A DNA stretch of 54,040 nucleotides from Myxococcales bacterium. GTDB lineage: Bacteria; Myxococcota_A; Polyangia; Fen-1088. Location of the stretch: assembly GCA_025350815.1 (NCBI GenBank), contig JANXXE010000119.1, positions 1-54,040 of the forward strand. The letters run 5' to 3'. A program made the translations under genes and the position numbers. Under the pieces are notes generated by a model. The model was not told where the DNA came from, searched no databases, and worked only from the letters and a program-made list of their open reading frames with translations. Each line of letters begins with the position of its first letter. Position 1 is the first letter of the stretch. This document shows, in pieces, positions 12,437 to 24,910 of this stretch.

Positions 12437-12553
12437 GGCCTGGAATGTGGCACGACGCAGGGCGGCCGTCCATCGGTGCGGCGAACGCATGGCGCCCGGT
12501 GCCAACGCTGTTTTACCCGAAATGTTGTAGGCAGGTGTAACATCCGCGCCGCC

Positions 12554-14194
12554 ATGTCTCGCCCGCCGGAGGTCAGCGTTCGGGCTGCCGATTCCGCCGA
12601 AAGGCGACTACCGCTCAGGCCATGCACCACCATCGGCCGGGCGGAGGACAGCGACATCTATTTTCCCGACCAGCTGCTGTCGCGCCGGCACGCCGAGATT
12701 CAGGTGCGCGCGGCCGGCTCGTTCGTTATTGATCTGGGCAGCACGAACGGCACGTTCTTGAACGGGACGCGCGTCGTAAAAGAGGCATTGCTGCACGACA
12801 ACGACCTTGTGACCCTGGGTGAAAATCGCATCGTCTTTCACGAAAGGTCGCTGGCGACCGACGATTCCGGTCTGCGCCTGTCAGAGGTCCGACCGCTGGT
12901 TCTGAACGATCTGTCAGCCCGGTCGACGCGCAAGACCATTGCCGTCGCCGACATGGTCAACGAGAACCGGTCACTGGGGATCCTGGCGCAGGTCACGACG
13001 TCGCTGCTGGTTCAAAAGACCGTCCCTGATCTGCTGTCGAACATCCTTGAGCTGGTGTTCGAGAATCTGCCGGCCGAGCGCGGGGCGATCCTGTTGCTGG
13101 AGGGAGAGCCCGCGGTGCCCGTGATCAAGGCGGCCCGCACGCGCCCTGGATCCGAGCCCATCGCGCTGGTCAGCAGTTCCATCAGCCGGCGCGTGATCGA
13201 AAATCGGGTGGCCCTGCTGTTGCGGGATGTTCACGAGGACAAGCTGCTGCGCGGGCAGCCCAGCATCATTTCCGAGGCCATTCGTTCCGCGGCTTGCGCG
13301 CCGTTGTGGCTGTCGGCCGGCCCCGGCCAGCCCGACAAGGTGTTGGGCCTGGTCTACTTCGACAGCCGGTCCGAGGAACGTCCCTTCGACGAGACGGATC
13401 TGCAGATCCTGACCGTGGTGGCGAACATCGCCGCCACAAAACTGGAAAGCGCGCGCCTGCTGGAAGACAACCTCGACAAGCGTCTACTTGAAGAAGACAT
13501 GCGGGCGGCGGCCAAGATCCAGGCGCGCCTTTTGCCGCATATCGCCCCGCTGGTGCCCGGTTACGACGTCGCGGGAACGACGCGTTCCTGCCGCAGCGTG
13601 GGTGGCGATTACTATGACTTTGCCCTGGAGAATGATCGCCTACACCTGGCGCTGGGGGACGTTTCGGGTAAGGGTCTGGGCGCGGCGATGTTGATGGTTG
13701 CCTTGCGCGCCACTGTGCGCGCGCACTGGCGCACCGGGCGCCTGTCCGAGGCGACGGGTCACATGAACGCGACCTTCCACGAAAACGTGCCGGACGATCA
13801 GTACGCCACGCTGTTTTTGGCGCGGCTGGACCCGCGCGAGGGGCGTCTGACCTACGTCAACGCCGGGCACAACCGCCCGCTGCTGGTGCGCGGTGGCGAG
13901 ATTCACGAGGTGCTCAGTGACGCCGGAATGATCTTGGGTGCCTTCGAGCATGTCGCGTACGACGAAAGCGTCATCGGAATCGAGCCCGGTGACGTGCTGT
14001 TGATCTTTTCCGACGGGGTCAGCGAGACCTGGCCCGACCCCGACATCGCGGATCGCAAGCTTATCCAGATCGTGCGCGAGCACCGCCGCCATGGCGCGGA
14101 CGCCATTCAGGCGGCCATCTTCGAGGAATTGAATCGCCAGTCCGGTTCGCGGCCGGGCGATGATCGCACCATCGTGGTGGTGCGGCGGAAATAG
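12554..14194 (+). CDS. FHA-GAF-PP2C (SpoIIE/RsbU-type) phosphatase
   Basis: 546 residues. Domains in order: an FHA domain (about 20-95) with IGRAEDSD, SRRH and STNGTFLNG, which binds phosphothreonine; a GAF domain (about 145-310) with strand pattern RGAILLLEG and LGLVYFDS; a helical linker; and a PP2C-type serine phosphatase (about 335-545) with metal-binding GGDYYDF, GDVSGKG, NAGHNRP and FSDGVSE. This is the architecture of RsbU-like phosphatases controlled by phosphorylated partners and small molecules. The next gene is a Ser/Thr kinase starting 17 nt downstream, so the FHA domain may recognise a target of that kinase. ATG 12554 places FHA at the N-terminus; the open frame to 12476 is only antisense to the lipoprotein gene. 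Confidence 0.9.
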   Translation: MSRPPEVSVRAADSAERRLPLRPCTTIGRAEDSDIYFPDQLLSRRHAEIQVRAAGSFVIDLGSTNGTFLNGTRVVKEALLHDNDLVTLGENRIVFHERSLATDDSGLRLSEVRPLVLNDLSARSTRKTIAVADMVNENRSLGILAQVTTSLLVQKTVPDLLSNILELVFENLPAERGAILLLEGEPAVPVIKAARTRPGSEPIALVSSSISRRVIENRVALLLRDVHEDKLLRGQPSIISEAIRSAACAPLWLSAGPGQPDKVLGLVYFDSRSEERPFDETDLQILTVVANIAATKLESARLLEDNLDKRLLEEDMRAAAKIQARLLPHIAPLVPGYDVAGTTRSCRSVGGDYYDFALENDRLHLALGDVSGKGLGAAMLMVALRATVRAHWRTGRLSEATGHMNATFHENVPDDQYATLFLARLDPREGRLTYVNAGHNRPLLVRGGEIHEVLSDAGMILGAFEHVAYDESVIGIEPGDVLLIFSDGVSETWPDPDIADRKLIQIVREHRRHGADAIQAAIFEELNRQSGSRPGDDRTIVVVRRK

Positions 14195-14210
14195 CATCGA
14201 CGGGGTCAGG

Positions 14211-15677
14211 GTGTACGGCAGGACAATAGGGAACTACCAGGTCACTACGCTGCTGGGCGAAGGCGGCATGGGCAGCGTGTACCTGGCCCACCACCCGGCG
14301 ATCGAGCGCAAGTCCGCGATTAAAGTTCTGCACCCGAAGCACGCGCATGATCCGCAGGTGGTCAGGCGCTTTTTGGCCGAGGCGCGCGCCTCGAACGCCA
14401 TCCGCCATCCCAACATCGTGGACATCTATGACTGCGGCACGCTGCCCGACGGCGCGCCGTACATCATCATGGAGTACCTTGAGGGCGAGACCCTGGCCTC
14501 GCGCCTTCTGTGGACGCGGTTGACGATGTTGCAGGCGCTGGATTTTGGGATTCAGGCCGCATCGGCCCTGGCCGCCGCGCACGCCAAGGAAATCGTGCAC
14601 CGGGATCTGAAGCCAGAGAACATCTTCCTGATTTCCGATCCGCGCGTGCCCCGGCGGGAACAGGTCAAGGTGCTGGATTTTGGCATCGCCAAACTGCAAA
14701 GCAAGCTGCAGGAGCCGCCCCAGCGCACGCGCGACGGGGTGTTGCTGGGCACGCCGCTGTACATGTCGCCCGAGCAGTGCCTGGGCCAGTCCGACGTGGA
14801 CGCCCGCAGCGACGTCTACTCGCTGGGGGTGATCATCTACGAGATGCTGACGGGCCGGCCGCCCTTCATCGCCGAAACGGTGGGCGCCGCCATCAACATG
14901 CATATCAACGCCGCCCCCCAGCCCCTGCGCGCGCTGAACGCGCAGGTTTCGGCGCCGCTGGAGGCGGCTGTCTTGCGGGCGCTCGGCAAAGAGCCGGCCA
15001 CGCGCCATGCGACGATGGACGAATTCTTGGTCGATTTGGAGGCGGCGTTCTCGATGGCCAACACGGGCGCGTCCGCCGGTGATGGTGTTCCACCGGTTGG
15101 TGCCCCGCGCGGCACCGGTGAAAAGCTGCGGCGTCCGTTGTCAGCCCTCACGACTGTCGCCGGGGGCCAGGTGGGGAAGGCAACGCACCGGAAGGCGCCG
15201 ACGCGGCGGTGGGTGCTGGTGGTGGCCACGTGCGAATTGGCCGTGGCTGTGGTGATCCTGGTCTTGGCCCGCCACTGGCGCACCGAGCCCGCGTCGACAG
15301 TCCCCGTCCCGTCCCCCTACCCGCGGCAACCGGTCCCTGTGTTTTCGAGCCCGGCCCCGGCGCGGGGGCTGACGGTCGAGATGCAACTCGACAGCGAGCC
15401 GCCCGGGGCCACGGTGACGGTATCGGGGGCCCTCGCGGGTACCACACCGATGGTCCTGCGCGCCAAGGCCTCTGACGAGCCAATGGAACTGGTTTTCGCC
15501 CTCGACGGCCACCGGCGCGAGATCGTGAAGGTCATACCTGCGCCCGGCCTGAAGGTGCGCGCGAAGCTGCGAAAGCTGTCGCCGCGGCGTACCAGCGCGG
15601 AAACCGCCGGACCCGAGCCAGACCTGGCGCCCCAGTTGCCGGCCCCCGTAGTCGACGACATCAAGTCCGAGCGCTGA
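14211..15677 (+). CDS. Ser/Thr protein kinase with membrane segment and PEGA-like tail
   Basis: 488 residues from GTG 14211, preceded by GGGGTCAGG. The Hanks-type kinase domain spans about 9-280: G-loop GEGGMGSVYLA, catalytic Lys38 (SAIKVL), HRDLKPEN near 131, DFG at 157-159, and SPEQ near 186. A Pro/Ala-rich linker precedes one membrane segment at about 333-353. The extracytoplasmic part includes a PEGA-like domain (about 388-450; SEPPGATVTVSG, GTTPMVL), a fold that binds peptidoglycan or surface partners in kinases. All catalytic residues are present. It follows the phosphatase by 16 nt and is followed by the PEGA-bearing receptor, which supports a joint signalling role (inference). Confidence 0.88.
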   Translation: MYGRTIGNYQVTTLLGEGGMGSVYLAHHPAIERKSAIKVLHPKHAHDPQVVRRFLAEARASNAIRHPNIVDIYDCGTLPDGAPYIIMEYLEGETLASRLLWTRLTMLQALDFGIQAASALAAAHAKEIVHRDLKPENIFLISDPRVPRREQVKVLDFGIAKLQSKLQEPPQRTRDGVLLGTPLYMSPEQCLGQSDVDARSDVYSLGVIIYEMLTGRPPFIAETVGAAINMHINAAPQPLRALNAQVSAPLEAAVLRALGKEPATRHATMDEFLVDLEAAFSMANTGASAGDGVPPVGAPRGTGEKLRRPLSALTTVAGGQVGKATHRKAPTRRWVLVVATCELAVAVVILVLARHWRTEPASTVPVPSPYPRQPVPVFSSPAPARGLTVEMQLDSEPPGATVTVSGALAGTTPMVLRAKASDEPMELVFALDGHRREIVKVIPAPGLKVRAKLRKLSPRRTSAETAGPEPDLAPQLPAPVVDDIKSER

Positions 15678-15690
15678 TACTCTTCGCCGA

Positions 15691-18591
15691 ATGGCTCGGT
15701 TCGCCGCGCGGGTGTTTCAGGGGGCACTGTTCGTGGTGCTGGCCCTGGCCGTGGCCGGACCCGTGCGTGCCGCGCAGGACGCTGACGAGGCGCAGTTTCA
15801 CTTTGTCAGGGGCAATCAGTTCTACCGGCAGGGGCACCTCGAAGACGCGCTGGGCGAGTATTACGCCTCGGATCGGCTGGTCCCGAACCGCAACGTGGCC
15901 TTCAACATCGCGCGCTGCCTGGAGAAGCTGAAACGGTACGACGAAGCCTTTCGCGCGTGGTCCGCGGTCGGCGGCGACTACCTGCCGAAGGAAGAGGCCG
16001 CAGTCATTGGCGCGTCGATCGAGCGCTTGCGGCCACATGTTGCTTTTCTGCAAGTCAACACGCGCCCCAGCGGGGCCGACGTCTATCTCAATCGTCGCGA
16101 TCTGGGGTCGCTGGGCCACACACCCAAGCTGCTGGCATTGCCCGAAGGCAAGGGGATGTTGATTATCGAACTGCCGGGATACCGCCGCAAAGAGATCACG
16201 GTCGAACTGGTCAGGGGTAAGGAGACACGCGCGGACGCGACCCTGGATCCCATCTTGGGAACGGTCGCCCTGAGCCAGGTTCCCGACAACGCGGAAATCC
16301 GTCGCAACCGGGCGGACGCCGGCGTCTTGCGGCGTGGCCCGGGCGCTGTCCAGATCCCCCCCGGCCACACCATGCTGGTGGTGTCAGCGCCCGGCTACAG
16401 GACGGTCGAGGTCGAGGTCAACGTCGTGCCCGACGCCGTCACCCCCATCGCCGTCGGGCTTGATAGCCTGGTGTTGCGGGGCACGCTGGTGCTGCGGGCC
16501 AATGTCGACGGCGCCACGGTCCTGGTCGACGGCCGCGAACGGGGCCTGACACCGACGGTGATCGAAGATCTGGCCGCAGGCGAGCGACTGCTGGAAATCG
16601 TCAGCCCCGGTTACGAGAATTTCCAGTCGCGCGTGCAGATTCGCGCCGGCGAGTCGACCCATGCCGAGGCGCACCTGTTGCCGGCCGTCCCGCGGGTATC
16701 GGCTGCCAGCAAAAGCACCGTTCGCACGGATCAGGCGCCCGCGTCGGTCAGCGTGATCAGCGCGGAGGACATCGCCGCCTTCGGCTACGGCACGCTGGCC
16801 GAGGCGCTGGCCGCGGCGCGTGGAACGTTTTCATCCAACGATCGCAGCTACGAATCGATCGGCTTCCGCGGCTTCTCGCCGCCCGGGGACTACACCAGTC
16901 GCGTGCTGGTGCTGGTCGATGGGCATCCGACCAACGACGTTCTGACCGGCCAGGGTTACGTCGGACACGATTTCGACGTCGACCTGGCCGAGGTCGAGCG
17001 CATCGAAATCGTGCGCGGGCCGGGCTCGGTCCTGTACGGCAACGCGGCGCTGTTCGGTGTCATCAATGTCGTCACCCGACGTCCCGCACCGGGCGCGCAC
17101 GCGTCGGCGGGAACGCAGGTCGGCAGTCTGGGCCTGTCATCCGCGCGTGGGACCGCCAGCCAGCGCGGCCGGGCGTACGAGGTGGCGGCGACCGGCGCGA
17201 TCCTGGGCCAGGCGGGCGATCGCAGTTTTGCCTGGGCTGATGGCGCCGGCGGTTTGCCCGCGACGGTGGCCCGGTACGCCGACCACGAAAGCGCCGTACA
17301 CGCGCAGGTCCGCGTCGCGGTCGGCCCCGTCACGCTGCAGGCGGGCGTTAACCGGCGTGACAAAACGGTGCCCACGGGCGCCTTTCAAACCCGCGCAGAG
17401 CCCGGCACCACGGAACGTGACACACGCACATGGGTCGAACTGCGGTTCGAAAAGACTGTGGGCCCGCAAGACAGGGCAACGTTGTTCGCGCGGGCCGCCT
17501 ACGACGCCAGCGGCTTCGATGGCAACTACCGTCTTGCGCCCGATGCGGCCGGCAAGGCCCGCCGCGATTTGCAGGATGCCTTTGCCGCCCGTTGGTTCAC
17601 CGGCGAATTGCGCCTGGCCCTTGTAGCCCCCCGGGGCCATCACCTCACGCTGGGCGGCGAGGCCCAGGGGCACGTCTTGCTGGATCTGGGCGACCCGTCG
17701 TCCACGGCGCAGCAAGCGGCCAACGCCGGTAACGAGCTGATTCTGTCTGCCTACGTCACCGACGACTGGGCGCTGACGGAACATCTGCGTCTGAATGTCG
17801 GCCTGCGCGCCGATCACTATCAGGCGTACGGCAACAGCAACTTGAATCCCCGGGCGGCGCTGATTGGCCAGTTCTACGCCCGTGGAACCACGAAGGTCAT
17901 GGCTGGCCGCGCCTTTCGCGCGCCTTCGGTCTACGAACGTTTCTATGGCGATGGCGGCGTCACGCAGCGGCAAGCCGCCGACCTTGTTCCGGAAGCGATC
18001 GTCAGCGCCGAATTGGAACACACGCACGGCTTCAGCGACGAGGTGACCGCCGTCGGGGCGCTGTTCGCCAATCAGATCTCGGGCCTGATTGTTCTGGACA
18101 CCGAAGCCGCGTCCGGGCGGCCGTTACTGGTCTATCGCCAGCACGACGGACAGGTTCGCAGCGTCGGCGCCGAGGGCGAATTGCGCTGGGAGCCGGCGCC
18201 GGGAACCTTGTTGGGCGCCTCGTACTCGTGGCAAATCCTGCGTGACCACATCGGCGGAACGGCGGGACCCTTTCCCAACGCACCCGAGCATCTGGTGGCG
18301 TTGCGTTGGCGCCGCCCGATCCTACCCCGTCGTCTGTCACTGGGCAGCGAAGTCCTGTACGAGGTGGGGCGCCGCGACCGAAACGGCGACCGCGTCGACG
18401 ACGCCATGATGGCCAACGTCACCATCAGCGGCGACTATCAGGCGTGGCGCCTGCGCTACTTCGCCGGTGTGTTCAACCTGCTGGACGTGCGCGGCGCGGG
18501 CAGCGGCTTTCCGGCCGGCCAGGAGATCCCGGCGCTGACGGTGCCGCGCTACGGACGTTCGGCCCGCGTCGGCGTGTCGTGGTCGTTCTGA
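15691..18591 (+). CDS. TonB-dependent receptor with N-terminal TPR and three PEGA-like domains
   Basis: 966 residues. Signal peptide 1-28. Residues 33-95 look like TPR helices (QFYRQGHLEDALGEY, FNIARCLEKLKRYDEAF). Three PEGA-like repeats follow at about 116-186, 190-258 and 262-330 (for example GADVYLN...LPGYR; ATVLVDG...SPGYE). The plug domain (about 345-468) has VLVDGHPTND, VERIEIVRGPGSVLYG and INVVTRR, all typical of TonB receptors. The beta-barrel fills the rest and ends in a Phe (VGVSWSF), as outer-membrane barrels do. The barrel is a normal length, so the extra 330 residues are an added periplasmic module and not a substitution. No clear TonB box is visible. The gene starts 13 nt after the kinase stop. 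Confidence 0.88.
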   Translation: MARFAARVFQGALFVVLALAVAGPVRAAQDADEAQFHFVRGNQFYRQGHLEDALGEYYASDRLVPNRNVAFNIARCLEKLKRYDEAFRAWSAVGGDYLPKEEAAVIGASIERLRPHVAFLQVNTRPSGADVYLNRRDLGSLGHTPKLLALPEGKGMLIIELPGYRRKEITVELVRGKETRADATLDPILGTVALSQVPDNAEIRRNRADAGVLRRGPGAVQIPPGHTMLVVSAPGYRTVEVEVNVVPDAVTPIAVGLDSLVLRGTLVLRANVDGATVLVDGRERGLTPTVIEDLAAGERLLEIVSPGYENFQSRVQIRAGESTHAEAHLLPAVPRVSAASKSTVRTDQAPASVSVISAEDIAAFGYGTLAEALAAARGTFSSNDRSYESIGFRGFSPPGDYTSRVLVLVDGHPTNDVLTGQGYVGHDFDVDLAEVERIEIVRGPGSVLYGNAALFGVINVVTRRPAPGAHASAGTQVGSLGLSSARGTASQRGRAYEVAATGAILGQAGDRSFAWADGAGGLPATVARYADHESAVHAQVRVAVGPVTLQAGVNRRDKTVPTGAFQTRAEPGTTERDTRTWVELRFEKTVGPQDRATLFARAAYDASGFDGNYRLAPDAAGKARRDLQDAFAARWFTGELRLALVAPRGHHLTLGGEAQGHVLLDLGDPSSTAQQAANAGNELILSAYVTDDWALTEHLRLNVGLRADHYQAYGNSNLNPRAALIGQFYARGTTKVMAGRAFRAPSVYERFYGDGGVTQRQAADLVPEAIVSAELEHTHGFSDEVTAVGALFANQISGLIVLDTEAASGRPLLVYRQHDGQVRSVGAEGELRWEPAPGTLLGASYSWQILRDHIGGTAGPFPNAPEHLVALRWRRPILPRRLSLGSEVLYEVGRRDRNGDRVDDAMMANVTISGDYQAWRLRYFAGVFNLLDVRGAGSGFPAGQEIPALTVPRYGRSARVGVSWSF

Positions 18592-18782
18592 TCCGGCCGC
18601 GCACCCGCCAGCGTCCGGCACAGCTCCAGCAGGTCTGATGCCGCCTTCAGGCGCGCCGTCACCCCGGCGGCGGTCATGTCCAGTTTGGCGTCAAGGCGGG
18701 TCTCGGGCCGCAGCGCGCCCGCCAGGCGACTGGCCTCGCGCAGACGTTCGTCGATGGCCCGCGCCGACAGATTGACGATCAT
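18549..18782 (-). CDS. Small partner of nucleotidyltransferase, 77 aa
   Basis: 77 residues, mostly helical and charged. Its ATG overlaps the stop of the nucleotidyltransferase gene as ATGA, which implies translational coupling. Leu/Arg-rich helices (VTARLKAASDLLELCRTL) occupy the centre, and a hydrophilic, Asp/Pro-rich tail follows. I do not recognise a catalytic motif. Paired small helical proteins beside MNT-type nucleotidyltransferases are known in toxin-antitoxin modules, but this match is by arrangement only. Its 3' end overlaps the end of the TonB-receptor gene by 43 bp on the other strand. Confidence 0.6.
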   Translation of the reverse strand: MIVNLSARAIDERLREASRLAGALRPETRLDAKLDMTAAGVTARLKAASDLLELCRTLAGARPDQNDHDTPTRAERP

Positions 18783-19231
18783 CGATCCAGATCCTTCAGG
18801 TTCGCAATGTCGACCAGATCTTGCGGTCGCGCGGCGCTGGCCTTCATGGCTATAAGGGCCTCGCGCGAAATAACGGCAATGAAGTGGTCCAAAAGCGGCA
18901 GGCGGACGCGGGTCGCCCAGGCGCCCTCGGTGTTCTTGTCCACCAGCAGAAAGTCCACGGTCATCAAACTGCCGTCCGCTTCCACCCGGTTGATTCGCTG
19001 CATCTGCGTCCCGTCCTTGAACTCGAAGGGCAGGCCCTCCAGCACGAATCCACGCGTTCTCAGCGCCGCCAGCGCCCGTGGCAGCGCCTCGGGCCGAACC
19101 AGCAGGTCGATGTCCCTGGTCGCGCGTGGGGCGCCCCAGACGGCGACGGCCAGTCCCCCGACCAGCGCATACTCGACGCCCGCGTGGTCAAGGGCCCCCA
19201 GTACGCCCCGCAGTTCGTCGTACAACGTCAT
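18779..19231 (-). CDS. Nucleotidyltransferase-fold protein (AbiEii/MNT-like)
   Basis: 150 residues. The nucleotidyltransferase signature is clear: ALVGGLAVAVWGAPRAT (GG at 25-26) followed by RDIDLLV, where Asp40 and Asp42 are the metal ligands, and a third acidic strand VDFLLVDK near 95. This is the fold of AbiEii/MenT-type toxins and of aminoglycoside nucleotidyltransferase-like proteins. The start ATG 19231 is preceded by AGGA at a good distance. It is followed by a coupled 77-aa gene. Whether it modifies tRNA, a protein or a small molecule cannot be told. Confidence 0.75.
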   Translation of the reverse strand: MTLYDELRGVLGALDHAGVEYALVGGLAVAVWGAPRATRDIDLLVRPEALPRALAALRTRGFVLEGLPFEFKDGTQMQRINRVEADGSLMTVDFLLVDKNTEGAWATRVRLPLLDHFIAVISREALIAMKASAARPQDLVDIANLKDLDR

Positions 19232-22708: not shown

Positions 22709-24910
22709 GTGCGTAAGCTGTTGCTTGCCGCCTTCATTCTGGCTGGCCTTTGTGCCGGCTGGTTGTGGTCCCGGGTGCAGCGCGCCCAGCAGTCAGTGGC
22801 GCCGCCGTTTGCGCGCCTGGCCCAGGACCCATCGCTGTCGCCATCGCCGTCGCCAGGACCCGTCGATGCGGGCGCCCCCGTCCCGAGGCGTGCGGCGCGC
22901 CTGCACGTTCTGATGATCAACGGTGGCGCCACGCCGGCGCGTAATTACCGCTCGCACCTTTTGCACCTGGAAAGGCTGCTGGGCCTTCTGCACCAGGCGC
23001 GGCGTGTGGTGGATCAGGTGACTGTGCTCAGCGGCGACGGATCCGATCCGGCGCCCGATCTGGCCGTGCGCGAGGCGCGGCCCGATGGTCTATGGCTGGT
23101 CGAAGGCACCCGCCTTGATGCGGCGTTGCGCCCGCCCACCGTCCTCGAGAACTCGACGCTGGCGGGCGCGCAACTGTTTCCCGCGACACGTGGCGCTCTG
23201 ACCATCTGGTCGCTGACCGTCGGGCAGCGGCTGACCCGTGGGGACACGCTGTTGCTGTACGTTACCGATCACGGCGCGCGTGGCGAAACCGGCCGCGACG
23301 ATGGCCGGATAACCTTGTGGGGCGAAAATCAGTCGCTGTCCGTCGCGGAGTTGCGCGATCTGCTGGACACGCTGGATCCCGGCGTGCGCGTCGTCGCGCT
23401 GATGTCCCAGTGCTATTCGGGGGCGTTCGCCGGCCTTGCCGATCCTGATGGAAAGGGCGACGCCGGCAAGGCGCGGCCGGTCTGCGGGTATTTCTCGACG
23501 ACGGCGGATCGTCCGGCCTATGGCTGCTACCCCGAGAATCTGGGCCGCGACAACGTCGGCCATTCGTTCGCCTTCTTGCGCGCGCTGGGTTCATCTGGCC
23601 TGTTCGACGAGGCGCACGCGCGGACACTGGTACGGGACGGCACCCCGGATGTTCCGGTGCGCACGTCCGACATCTACCTGGCCGGGCGAATCAAGCGACT
23701 GGCGACGGCGCGCGGGCAAGAACAGACGGCGTTTATCGACAGCCTGCTGAACGAGGCTGCGGCGCATCCGGAATTCTGGGGCCGCGAGCGCCGACTGGTC
23801 GACGAGGTGGCTCACAGCTTTGGCCTGACCAATCCCCCGTCGCTGTCGGCGCTGGCCGATGACAAGGCCAAGGTCGTCGCCGCGGCGGCGCGCCTGCAAA
23901 CCGGCGCCGAGCGGGCCAAGGCGAATCTGGCCGACAAGGTCCGCTTGAATCTCGACCGCTTCGTCACCGACCACCCGGGCTGGGCCGCGGCCGTGAATGA
24001 CGCCGCCGCCCGGTCGCCGCCCCGCCAGGAGGCGCAGCGTCTGGCCGCGGATCTTCTGCCCATGCTGGCCGCATCGGCCGCAGGGGACAGTGGCCTGTCG
24101 TCAGCGCGAAAGCGCGCCGAGACCACCGCCGCCCTGGCGTACCGGATGGAGGTCCGCCTGGCTGCCTTCCTGCGCTTGGAGACGCTGCTGACAACCCTCG
24201 CCGCGCGCGTGCAACTGGCGATGCACGGTAGCGTCGCAGAAAAGCGCGCGTACGAGGGCCTCGCGGCCTGCGAGCGTCTGCGGCTGCCCATCCCGACGCC
24301 GGCAGGACCGCCCCCTGCCGAGCCGTTTCCTGCCTTCGACGAGGATCTGCTGCTGGCCAGCTCGATCCTTCCCGAAGCAGGGTCATTCGCCGTCGACGCC
24401 GGACCGGCACATCCTGCCGCAGATGCGGGCACGGACGCCACTCCGGACGCCGCAGTGCCGGTTTCCCCGCCGCCCGCCGTGGTCGCCTACCGGGGGCCCC
24501 CACCGCCCGCGTTTGGCCACGGACAGTCGTACTTGCTGTTCTTCTGGGCGACGTGGTGCCGGCCGTGCAAGACGGCATTGCCTGAACTACTGGCCTTCGA
24601 ACGCGACCACGGCACGCCGGTTCTCGCCGTGACAGACGAGCGCCCCGATGTCCTCGACGGTTTCTTTCGCGGCTTCGGTCGCGCCTTCCCCGAACGCGTC
24701 TTGCTGGACCAATCCCGCGAGCTGGCCGCCCGCTACGCCATCACCGGCTACCCGACTTTCGTGTTTGTTCCGGGCTCGGGCGCAGCGCCGACCCGCATCG
24801 TCGGATACAACCCCGCCCGCGGCCTGGGCATCGACGGTTGGTCCTGGATGCGAATCGTGCCCGTGTATCGGCCGGGCAATCGCCGCGTCGGTCGCGCGTT
24901 GTCGCGCTAG
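22709..24910 (+). CDS. C13-like (clan CD) cysteine peptidase fused to a thioredoxin-like domain
   Basis: 733 residues from GTG 22709. The N-terminus is a signal peptide or signal anchor. Residues about 65-290 carry a clan CD peptidase core: YVTDHGARG with His188 and LMSQCYSG with Cys235, the His-Gly and Cys pairs seen in legumain-type (C13) peptidases. A long helical region (about 330-510) follows, then a Pro/Ala/Asp linker. Residues about 590-710 are a TlpA-like thioredoxin domain with WCRPC at 616-620 and cis-Pro682 in GYPTF. Both catalytic centres are intact. The fusion suggests a periplasmic enzyme combining cleavage or ligation with disulfide exchange. The 3' end is convergent with the DUF1552 gene, 5 bp away. 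Confidence 0.78.
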   Translation: MRKLLLAAFILAGLCAGWLWSRVQRAQQSVAPPFARLAQDPSLSPSPSPGPVDAGAPVPRRAARLHVLMINGGATPARNYRSHLLHLERLLGLLHQARRVVDQVTVLSGDGSDPAPDLAVREARPDGLWLVEGTRLDAALRPPTVLENSTLAGAQLFPATRGALTIWSLTVGQRLTRGDTLLLYVTDHGARGETGRDDGRITLWGENQSLSVAELRDLLDTLDPGVRVVALMSQCYSGAFAGLADPDGKGDAGKARPVCGYFSTTADRPAYGCYPENLGRDNVGHSFAFLRALGSSGLFDEAHARTLVRDGTPDVPVRTSDIYLAGRIKRLATARGQEQTAFIDSLLNEAAAHPEFWGRERRLVDEVAHSFGLTNPPSLSALADDKAKVVAAAARLQTGAERAKANLADKVRLNLDRFVTDHPGWAAAVNDAAARSPPRQEAQRLAADLLPMLAASAAGDSGLSSARKRAETTAALAYRMEVRLAAFLRLETLLTTLAARVQLAMHGSVAEKRAYEGLAACERLRLPIPTPAGPPPAEPFPAFDEDLLLASSILPEAGSFAVDAGPAHPAADAGTDATPDAAVPVSPPPAVVAYRGPPPPAFGHGQSYLLFFWATWCRPCKTALPELLAFERDHGTPVLAVTDERPDVLDGFFRGFGRAFPERVLLDQSRELAARYAITGYPTFVFVPGSGAAPTRIVGYNPARGLGIDGWSWMRIVPVYRPGNRRVGRALSR

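Follow-up and report, generated by a model that had tools for sequence, protein, structure and literature searches.

The question raised by this locus is why a TonB-dependent receptor should carry a large TPR and PEGA module in front of its plug, and with which protein that module might work. The gene lies in a stretch of 54,040 nucleotides of Myxococcales bacterium DNA, which is called the window here.

Domain organization of the receptor

The receptor and its parts were assigned to the following window positions:

15691..18591, + strand: TonB-dependent receptor with a TPR-PEGA3 periplasmic module, 966 aa (Pfam, AlphaFold)
15691..15771, + strand: signal peptide, residues 1-27 (assigned by eye from a hydrophobic N-terminus followed by VRAAQDADEAQ; pLDDT low here in the model)
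15781..16038, + strand: TPR helices, residues 31-116 (five helices in the model; profile against TPR structures)
16048..16251, + strand: PEGA domain 1 (PF08308, 47.3 bits)
16258..16455, + strand: PEGA domain 2 (PF08308, 21.5 bits, barely above the cut-off; strands in the model)
16480..16677, + strand: PEGA domain 3 (PF08308, 54.9 bits)
16687..16710, + strand: possible degenerate TonB box, residues 333-340, PRVSAASK (conserved segment immediately before the plug)
16729..17061, + strand: plug domain, residues 347-457 (PF07715, E 2.7e-21)
17092..18588, + strand: beta-barrel, with strands beginning at residue 468 and continuing to the C-terminus (PF00593; AlphaFold model; fold matches)

When the protein was compared with Pfam, the barrel family PF00593 matched residues 569-930 (E 3.3e-26) and PF08308 matched three times (whole-protein E 8e-32), all three copies being above the curated cut-off of 20.8 bits used in the genome scan. 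By its plug and predicted 22-stranded-type barrel the protein is a TonB-dependent receptor, and by its three PF08308 copies above the curated score it is also a PEGA domain protein. TPR_2 scored 21.4 bits in the single receptor sequence, below the cut-off of 27, and a profile of 43 receptor homologues matched designed TPR proteins with an E value of 9.8e-36, HOP being among the matches. The AlphaFold model of the full receptor, built on 84 homologues, had a mean pLDDT of 90.5 and a pTM of 0.78 and placed five N-terminal helices, three beta-repeats, the plug and the barrel in that order; the N-terminal module of one orthologue was modeled with a pLDDT of about 98. In the fold search, the barrel was nearest to PfeA, CirA and BtuB, and parts of the N-terminal module matched TPR proteins and carboxypeptidase-D transthyretin-like domains. 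The N-terminal model also matched one chain of the RtkS-PpkA structure 9k1u (E 1.6e-3). The segment before the plug (PRVSAAS in the window, EVTAAS in the family consensus) is in the right place and has only a degenerate likeness to a TonB box, so TonB dependence of the receptor is putative.

These findings agree with the earlier note, made from the letters of the DNA, which had described an ordinary plug and barrel preceded by about 330 extra residues (borne out by Pfam and AlphaFold) and had placed TPR helices and three PEGA repeats in that extension (Pfam, homologue profile and AlphaFold) after a signal peptide (recognized by eye). The case that it had named as its refutation, an ordinary CarboxypepD/STN extension without a PEGA fold, does not apply: CarboxypepD_reg reached 31.0 bits, slightly under its cut-off of 32.3, and no STN family was found among the Pfam matches of the receptor, in which TPR and PEGA occupy the place of STN. 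Elsewhere in the genome, PEGA matches were found six or seven in tandem in a 794-aa frame (G000:C124:10007-11314).

Distribution of the receptor and its pairing with a Ser/Thr kinase

When receptor residues 25-350 were used as the homology query, full receptor homologues were found in 5 of 18 genomes from the bacterial family to which the window belongs. Matches with E<=1e-20 occurred in 82 of 379 genomes sampled across Myxococcota, some of them being barrel-less TPR-PEGA proteins. A scan of named genomes found the architecture in Myxococcus, Pyxidicoccus, Corallococcus, Archangium, Sorangium, Minicystis and others, and nearly all of the 80 loci listed in it bore myxobacterial or unclassified deltaproteobacterial names. 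Three records titled Comamonas or Klebsiella pneumoniae (L190, L236 and L242) hold this myxobacterial locus, and their titles look wrong. The TPR-PEGA3 receptor is thus a recurrent Myxococcota family and not a one-off. The search for the same architecture in other Myxococcota, which had been proposed as a check, found it across the phylum, including in Myxococcus xanthus, and the idea that the fusion and the number of three repeats are unusual must be given up. One stretch (L072, 3822-14806) held three divergent TPR-PEGA receptors without an adjoining kinase. Barrel-less TPR-PEGA proteins were seen as tandem pairs at L074, L137, L144 and L073, two of these pairs directly following a kinase.

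No sigma/anti-sigma pair adjoined the receptor in the window. A Ser/Thr kinase gene and then an FHA-GAF-SpoIIE gene lay upstream, and an AbiEii-like nucleotidyltransferase gene (18779-19231, - strand) lay just 3' of the receptor. A further ORF at 22709-24910 (+ strand) combines a caspase-like protease part (DHG...QCYSG) with a thioredoxin-like C-terminus (WCRPC), as judged by eye. The upstream features were as follows:

12476..14194, + strand: FHA-GAF-SpoIIE phosphatase gene (Pfam; directly upstream of the kinase, overlapping its annotated start)
14160..15677, + strand: transmembrane Ser/Thr kinase (PF00069, E 7.7e-44; its stop codon 13 nt ahead of the receptor start)
15213..15269, + strand: kinase transmembrane segment, residues about 352-370 (hydropathy 2.87 over 19 residues)
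15381..15461, + strand: PEGA-like stretch in the periplasmic arm of the kinase (PF08308, 16.1 bits, under the cut-off)
15654..15674, + strand: kinase C-terminal tag DDIKSER-COOH ([ILF]xxxR C-terminus in 64/64 linked kinases)

Translation of the kinase may actually begin at a GTG near 14202. To determine how often the two genes occur together, about 100 regions around homologues were compared, and pairing was counted among barrel-bearing receptors for which the upstream sequence exceeded 1.6 kb. A co-directional Ser/Thr kinase gene was found immediately upstream in 67 of 82 such receptors and was absent in the remaining 15, and the adjacency occurred in 17 of 19 family-level groups. The distance from the kinase stop to the receptor start was mostly -4 to +29 nt. 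The window's 4.5-Mb genome contains 58 kinase matches, and, if approximately 4000 genes are assumed, chance adjacency is estimated at roughly 1-2%. Pkinase was present in 66 of 66 linked kinases, and PEGA at E<=0.05 in 37 of 66. In all 64 intact linked kinases, the kinase domain was followed by a transmembrane segment and a Pro-rich arm with a median length of 135 aa. By their sequence the linked proteins are Ser/Thr kinases with a kinase domain, a transmembrane segment and a predicted periplasmic arm. These findings indicate that the receptor and the kinase are very probably partners, and they fit the earlier suggestion that the PEGA repeats may meet another PEGA protein, the neighboring kinase, in a pairing that now proves to be phylum-wide.

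Two further candidates were rejected. An apparent kinase-receptor fusion in one long frame (L059) is probably a frameshift because DDIRSER followed by a stop is read in another frame, immediately ahead of the start of the receptor. The FHA-SpoIIE phosphatase is not a conserved third gene, close homologues being found only at the window, L130 and L136; at the latter two loci, SpoIIE-type phosphatases lie directly upstream of receptors that have no kinase. In the window's genome, the phosphatase may be an output or an antagonist of the pair.

The C-terminal tag of the linked kinases

The feature that proved most informative, and that the earlier note did not contain, was a conserved tag at the end of the kinase. 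Beyond the arm, all 64 intact linked kinases ended in [I/L/F]-x-x-x-R-COOH, usually D-I-[RK]-x-x-R, with R at -1 in 64 of 64, I at -5 in 55 and D or E at -6 in 51. Information content was maximal at -1 and high at -5 and -6, compared to about 1 bit in the linker before the tag, which was not conserved. A ribosome-binding-site artefact was rejected as the source of the tag since the final Arg used all six codons and the tag stood at the stop whatever the gap to the receptor. Kinases cut by contig ends (L083, L089, L122 and L139) had a similar C-terminal end. At L091, the upstream ORF (553 aa) ended in GTINLER and had a transmembrane-like segment and a PEGA-like stretch with no kinase match at threshold; judged by eye, it is probably a degenerate kinase.

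Control kinases were then compared. Among 29 other kinases from two genomes, 9 ended in Arg and 3 matched the tag under a relaxed definition that admits I, L, M, F or V at -5; I, L or F stood there in just one of the three. Kinases adjoining barrel-less TPR-PEGA proteins ended in L-x-P-R or I-R-x-x-L/F. Within the window's family, receptor-linked kinases carried the tag, and it was absent from the best-match kinases (one or two per genome) of 13 receptor-less genomes. Members of this family also had kinases with other conserved tails, namely EPAKL, GLATPSF-like and EWELH (L316, L317, L319, L320, L328, L329, L314; L326, L332, L337, L338; L324, L333), which hint that C-terminal tags may form a broader repertoire; no obvious linked partner was found within 1.5 kb of these genes.

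In Myxococcaceae, the receptor occurred without an adjoining kinase. When three Myxococcaceae genomes were searched for the DNA pattern encoding [DE]-I-(basic or polar)-x-x-R-stop, eight matches were found in Archangium. One of them lies at the end of a kinase that has PEGA and is encoded about 80 kb away from the receptor gene. For this kinase, the best-scoring relatives carried the tag in 12 of 12 genomes searched, ending in IKRGR, IKTGR, IKKGR, IKTSR, IRTDR or IKGER, and other, weaker kinase matches in the same 12 genomes did not carry it. Because of its GIKTGR end, the M. xanthus kinase had escaped the first pattern. At L188, a kinase of the unlinked Archangium type lies directly upstream of the receptor.

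A proposed trans-envelope pathway

TPR domains such as those of HOP often bind free C-terminal peptides. We consider it fairly probable that the receptor and the kinase form a trans-envelope signaling pair in which the TPR-PEGA module is the docking site of the tag. The receptor would be the outer-membrane half, with TPR-PEGA3 in the periplasm before the plug, where transducers have STN. The other half would be the inner-membrane Ser/Thr kinase, whose Pro-rich and often PEGA-bearing periplasmic arm would end in the free C-terminal tag. Binding of a ligand or TonB-driven movement of the plug would then alter docking and thereby change clustering and activity of the kinase. That the tag docks on the receptor we infer, together with the site, with reasonable though limited confidence, and outside-in signaling is the direction that we favor slightly. 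Residues H56, S60, N61, V69, R88 and Y90 are conserved in the receptors and not in barrel-less relatives with other tails, which makes them candidates for tag specificity; at three of these positions the window receptor has E56, D61 and W90. An AlphaFold model obtained by reading through the kinase stop at in-frame loci left the tag undocked (pLDDT about 50), with the C-terminus blocked and the parts tied together; because the linked sequence blocks the C-terminus, this is a weak test of docking.

Other readings of the same data have to be weighed. The tag might simply have been inherited within a single kinase subfamily and play no part in pairing. A tree of 158 kinase domains, made by a quick method with four long or odd rows left out, showed 11 changes of tag label compared to 53 in shuffles, so that tagged kinases do cluster beyond chance. 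The same tree nevertheless forced at least 5 label changes on well-supported branches and rejected a single clade of tagged kinases (p=8e-97). On these data, the tagged kinase domains are polyphyletic, and either a conserved arm would have acquired different kinase domains by exchange or the tag would have arisen repeatedly. With the linker just before the tag unconserved and the tag kept where the operon is lost, shared descent as the whole explanation is very improbable.

A reading of the receptor as an ordinary transporter for nutrients, its N-terminal part being a long spacer, and of the kinase as a regulator that merely shares its operon would account for the ordinary plug and barrel and their closeness to siderophore and B12 receptors. 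It would leave aside the conserved adjacency, the presence of the tag and its retention after the operon was broken, as well as an N-terminal module that is conserved about as well as the barrel, and we regard it as distinctly unlikely. Less remote, although still unlikely, is one pathway of receptor and kinase in which the tag has its binding site elsewhere in the envelope (on TonB, a protease or an assembly factor, for instance) and TPR-PEGA anchors to peptidoglycan or self-associates. The undocked tag in the read-through model and the conserved tails of kinases without a linked partner would both fit such an arrangement. Against it, the tag follows the receptor even when the genes are unlinked, is missing from the best-match kinases of receptor-less relatives, and is replaced by a different tail when the downstream protein has no barrel. 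Docking of the tag on the TPR-PEGA module is the reading that we hold to be the most probable.

The pairing suggests an undescribed route by which a signal from outside could reach the cytoplasm. TonB-dependent receptors signal inward mainly via anti-sigma factors. A bolder reading, to which we give somewhat less than even weight, is that a TonB-type receptor directly controls an inner-membrane Ser/Thr kinase via a tag read by TPR-PEGA, forming a further class of Myxococcota surface signaling with exchangeable kinase domains, in which other tags may serve other partners. If the pair is real, surface sensing would be linked to the large and poorly understood set of Myxococcota Ser/Thr kinases, some of which would gain an input. 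Since the pair is present in the genetically tractable M. xanthus, the idea is directly testable. In the open-access literature, to which our search was confined, no paper combining "PEGA domain" and "TonB-dependent receptor" was found, nor anything relevant that connects TonB receptors to PEGA or to Ser/Thr kinases.

Comparison with known systems

In the TonB-dependent transducers FecA, FpvA and FoxA, an N-terminal STN domain signals to a FecR-type anti-sigma factor. The system described here resembles them in having a TonB-type receptor with a folded periplasmic domain before the plug and a gene that adjoins an inner-membrane regulator with a periplasmic part; it differs in having TPR-PEGA3 instead of STN and a Ser/Thr kinase instead of the anti-sigma factor. 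Its plug and barrel fold is shared with the transporters CirA, PfeA and BtuB, from which the receptor differs by its low identity (about 16-21%), its degenerate TonB box and its large periplasmic N-terminal module. Barrel-less Myxococcota TPR-PEGA proteins have a homologous module, and about half of them are encoded directly downstream of a kinase; in contrast to the receptor, they have no plug or barrel, usually have a hydrophobic segment near the C-terminus, and go with other kinase tails. Action of a periplasmic protein on that part of a transmembrane Ser/Thr kinase which faces the periplasm, as proposed here, is also found in RtkS-PpkA and TagQRST-PpkA of type VI secretion threonine phosphorylation. 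Periplasmic RtkS binds and stabilizes the Ser/Thr kinase PpkA (PMC6082577), a precedent which indicates that periplasmic input to a Ser/Thr kinase is workable. Unlike RtkS, the receptor has an outer-membrane barrel, and the likeness of its N-terminal model to a chain of the RtkS-PpkA structure is at the level of the fold.
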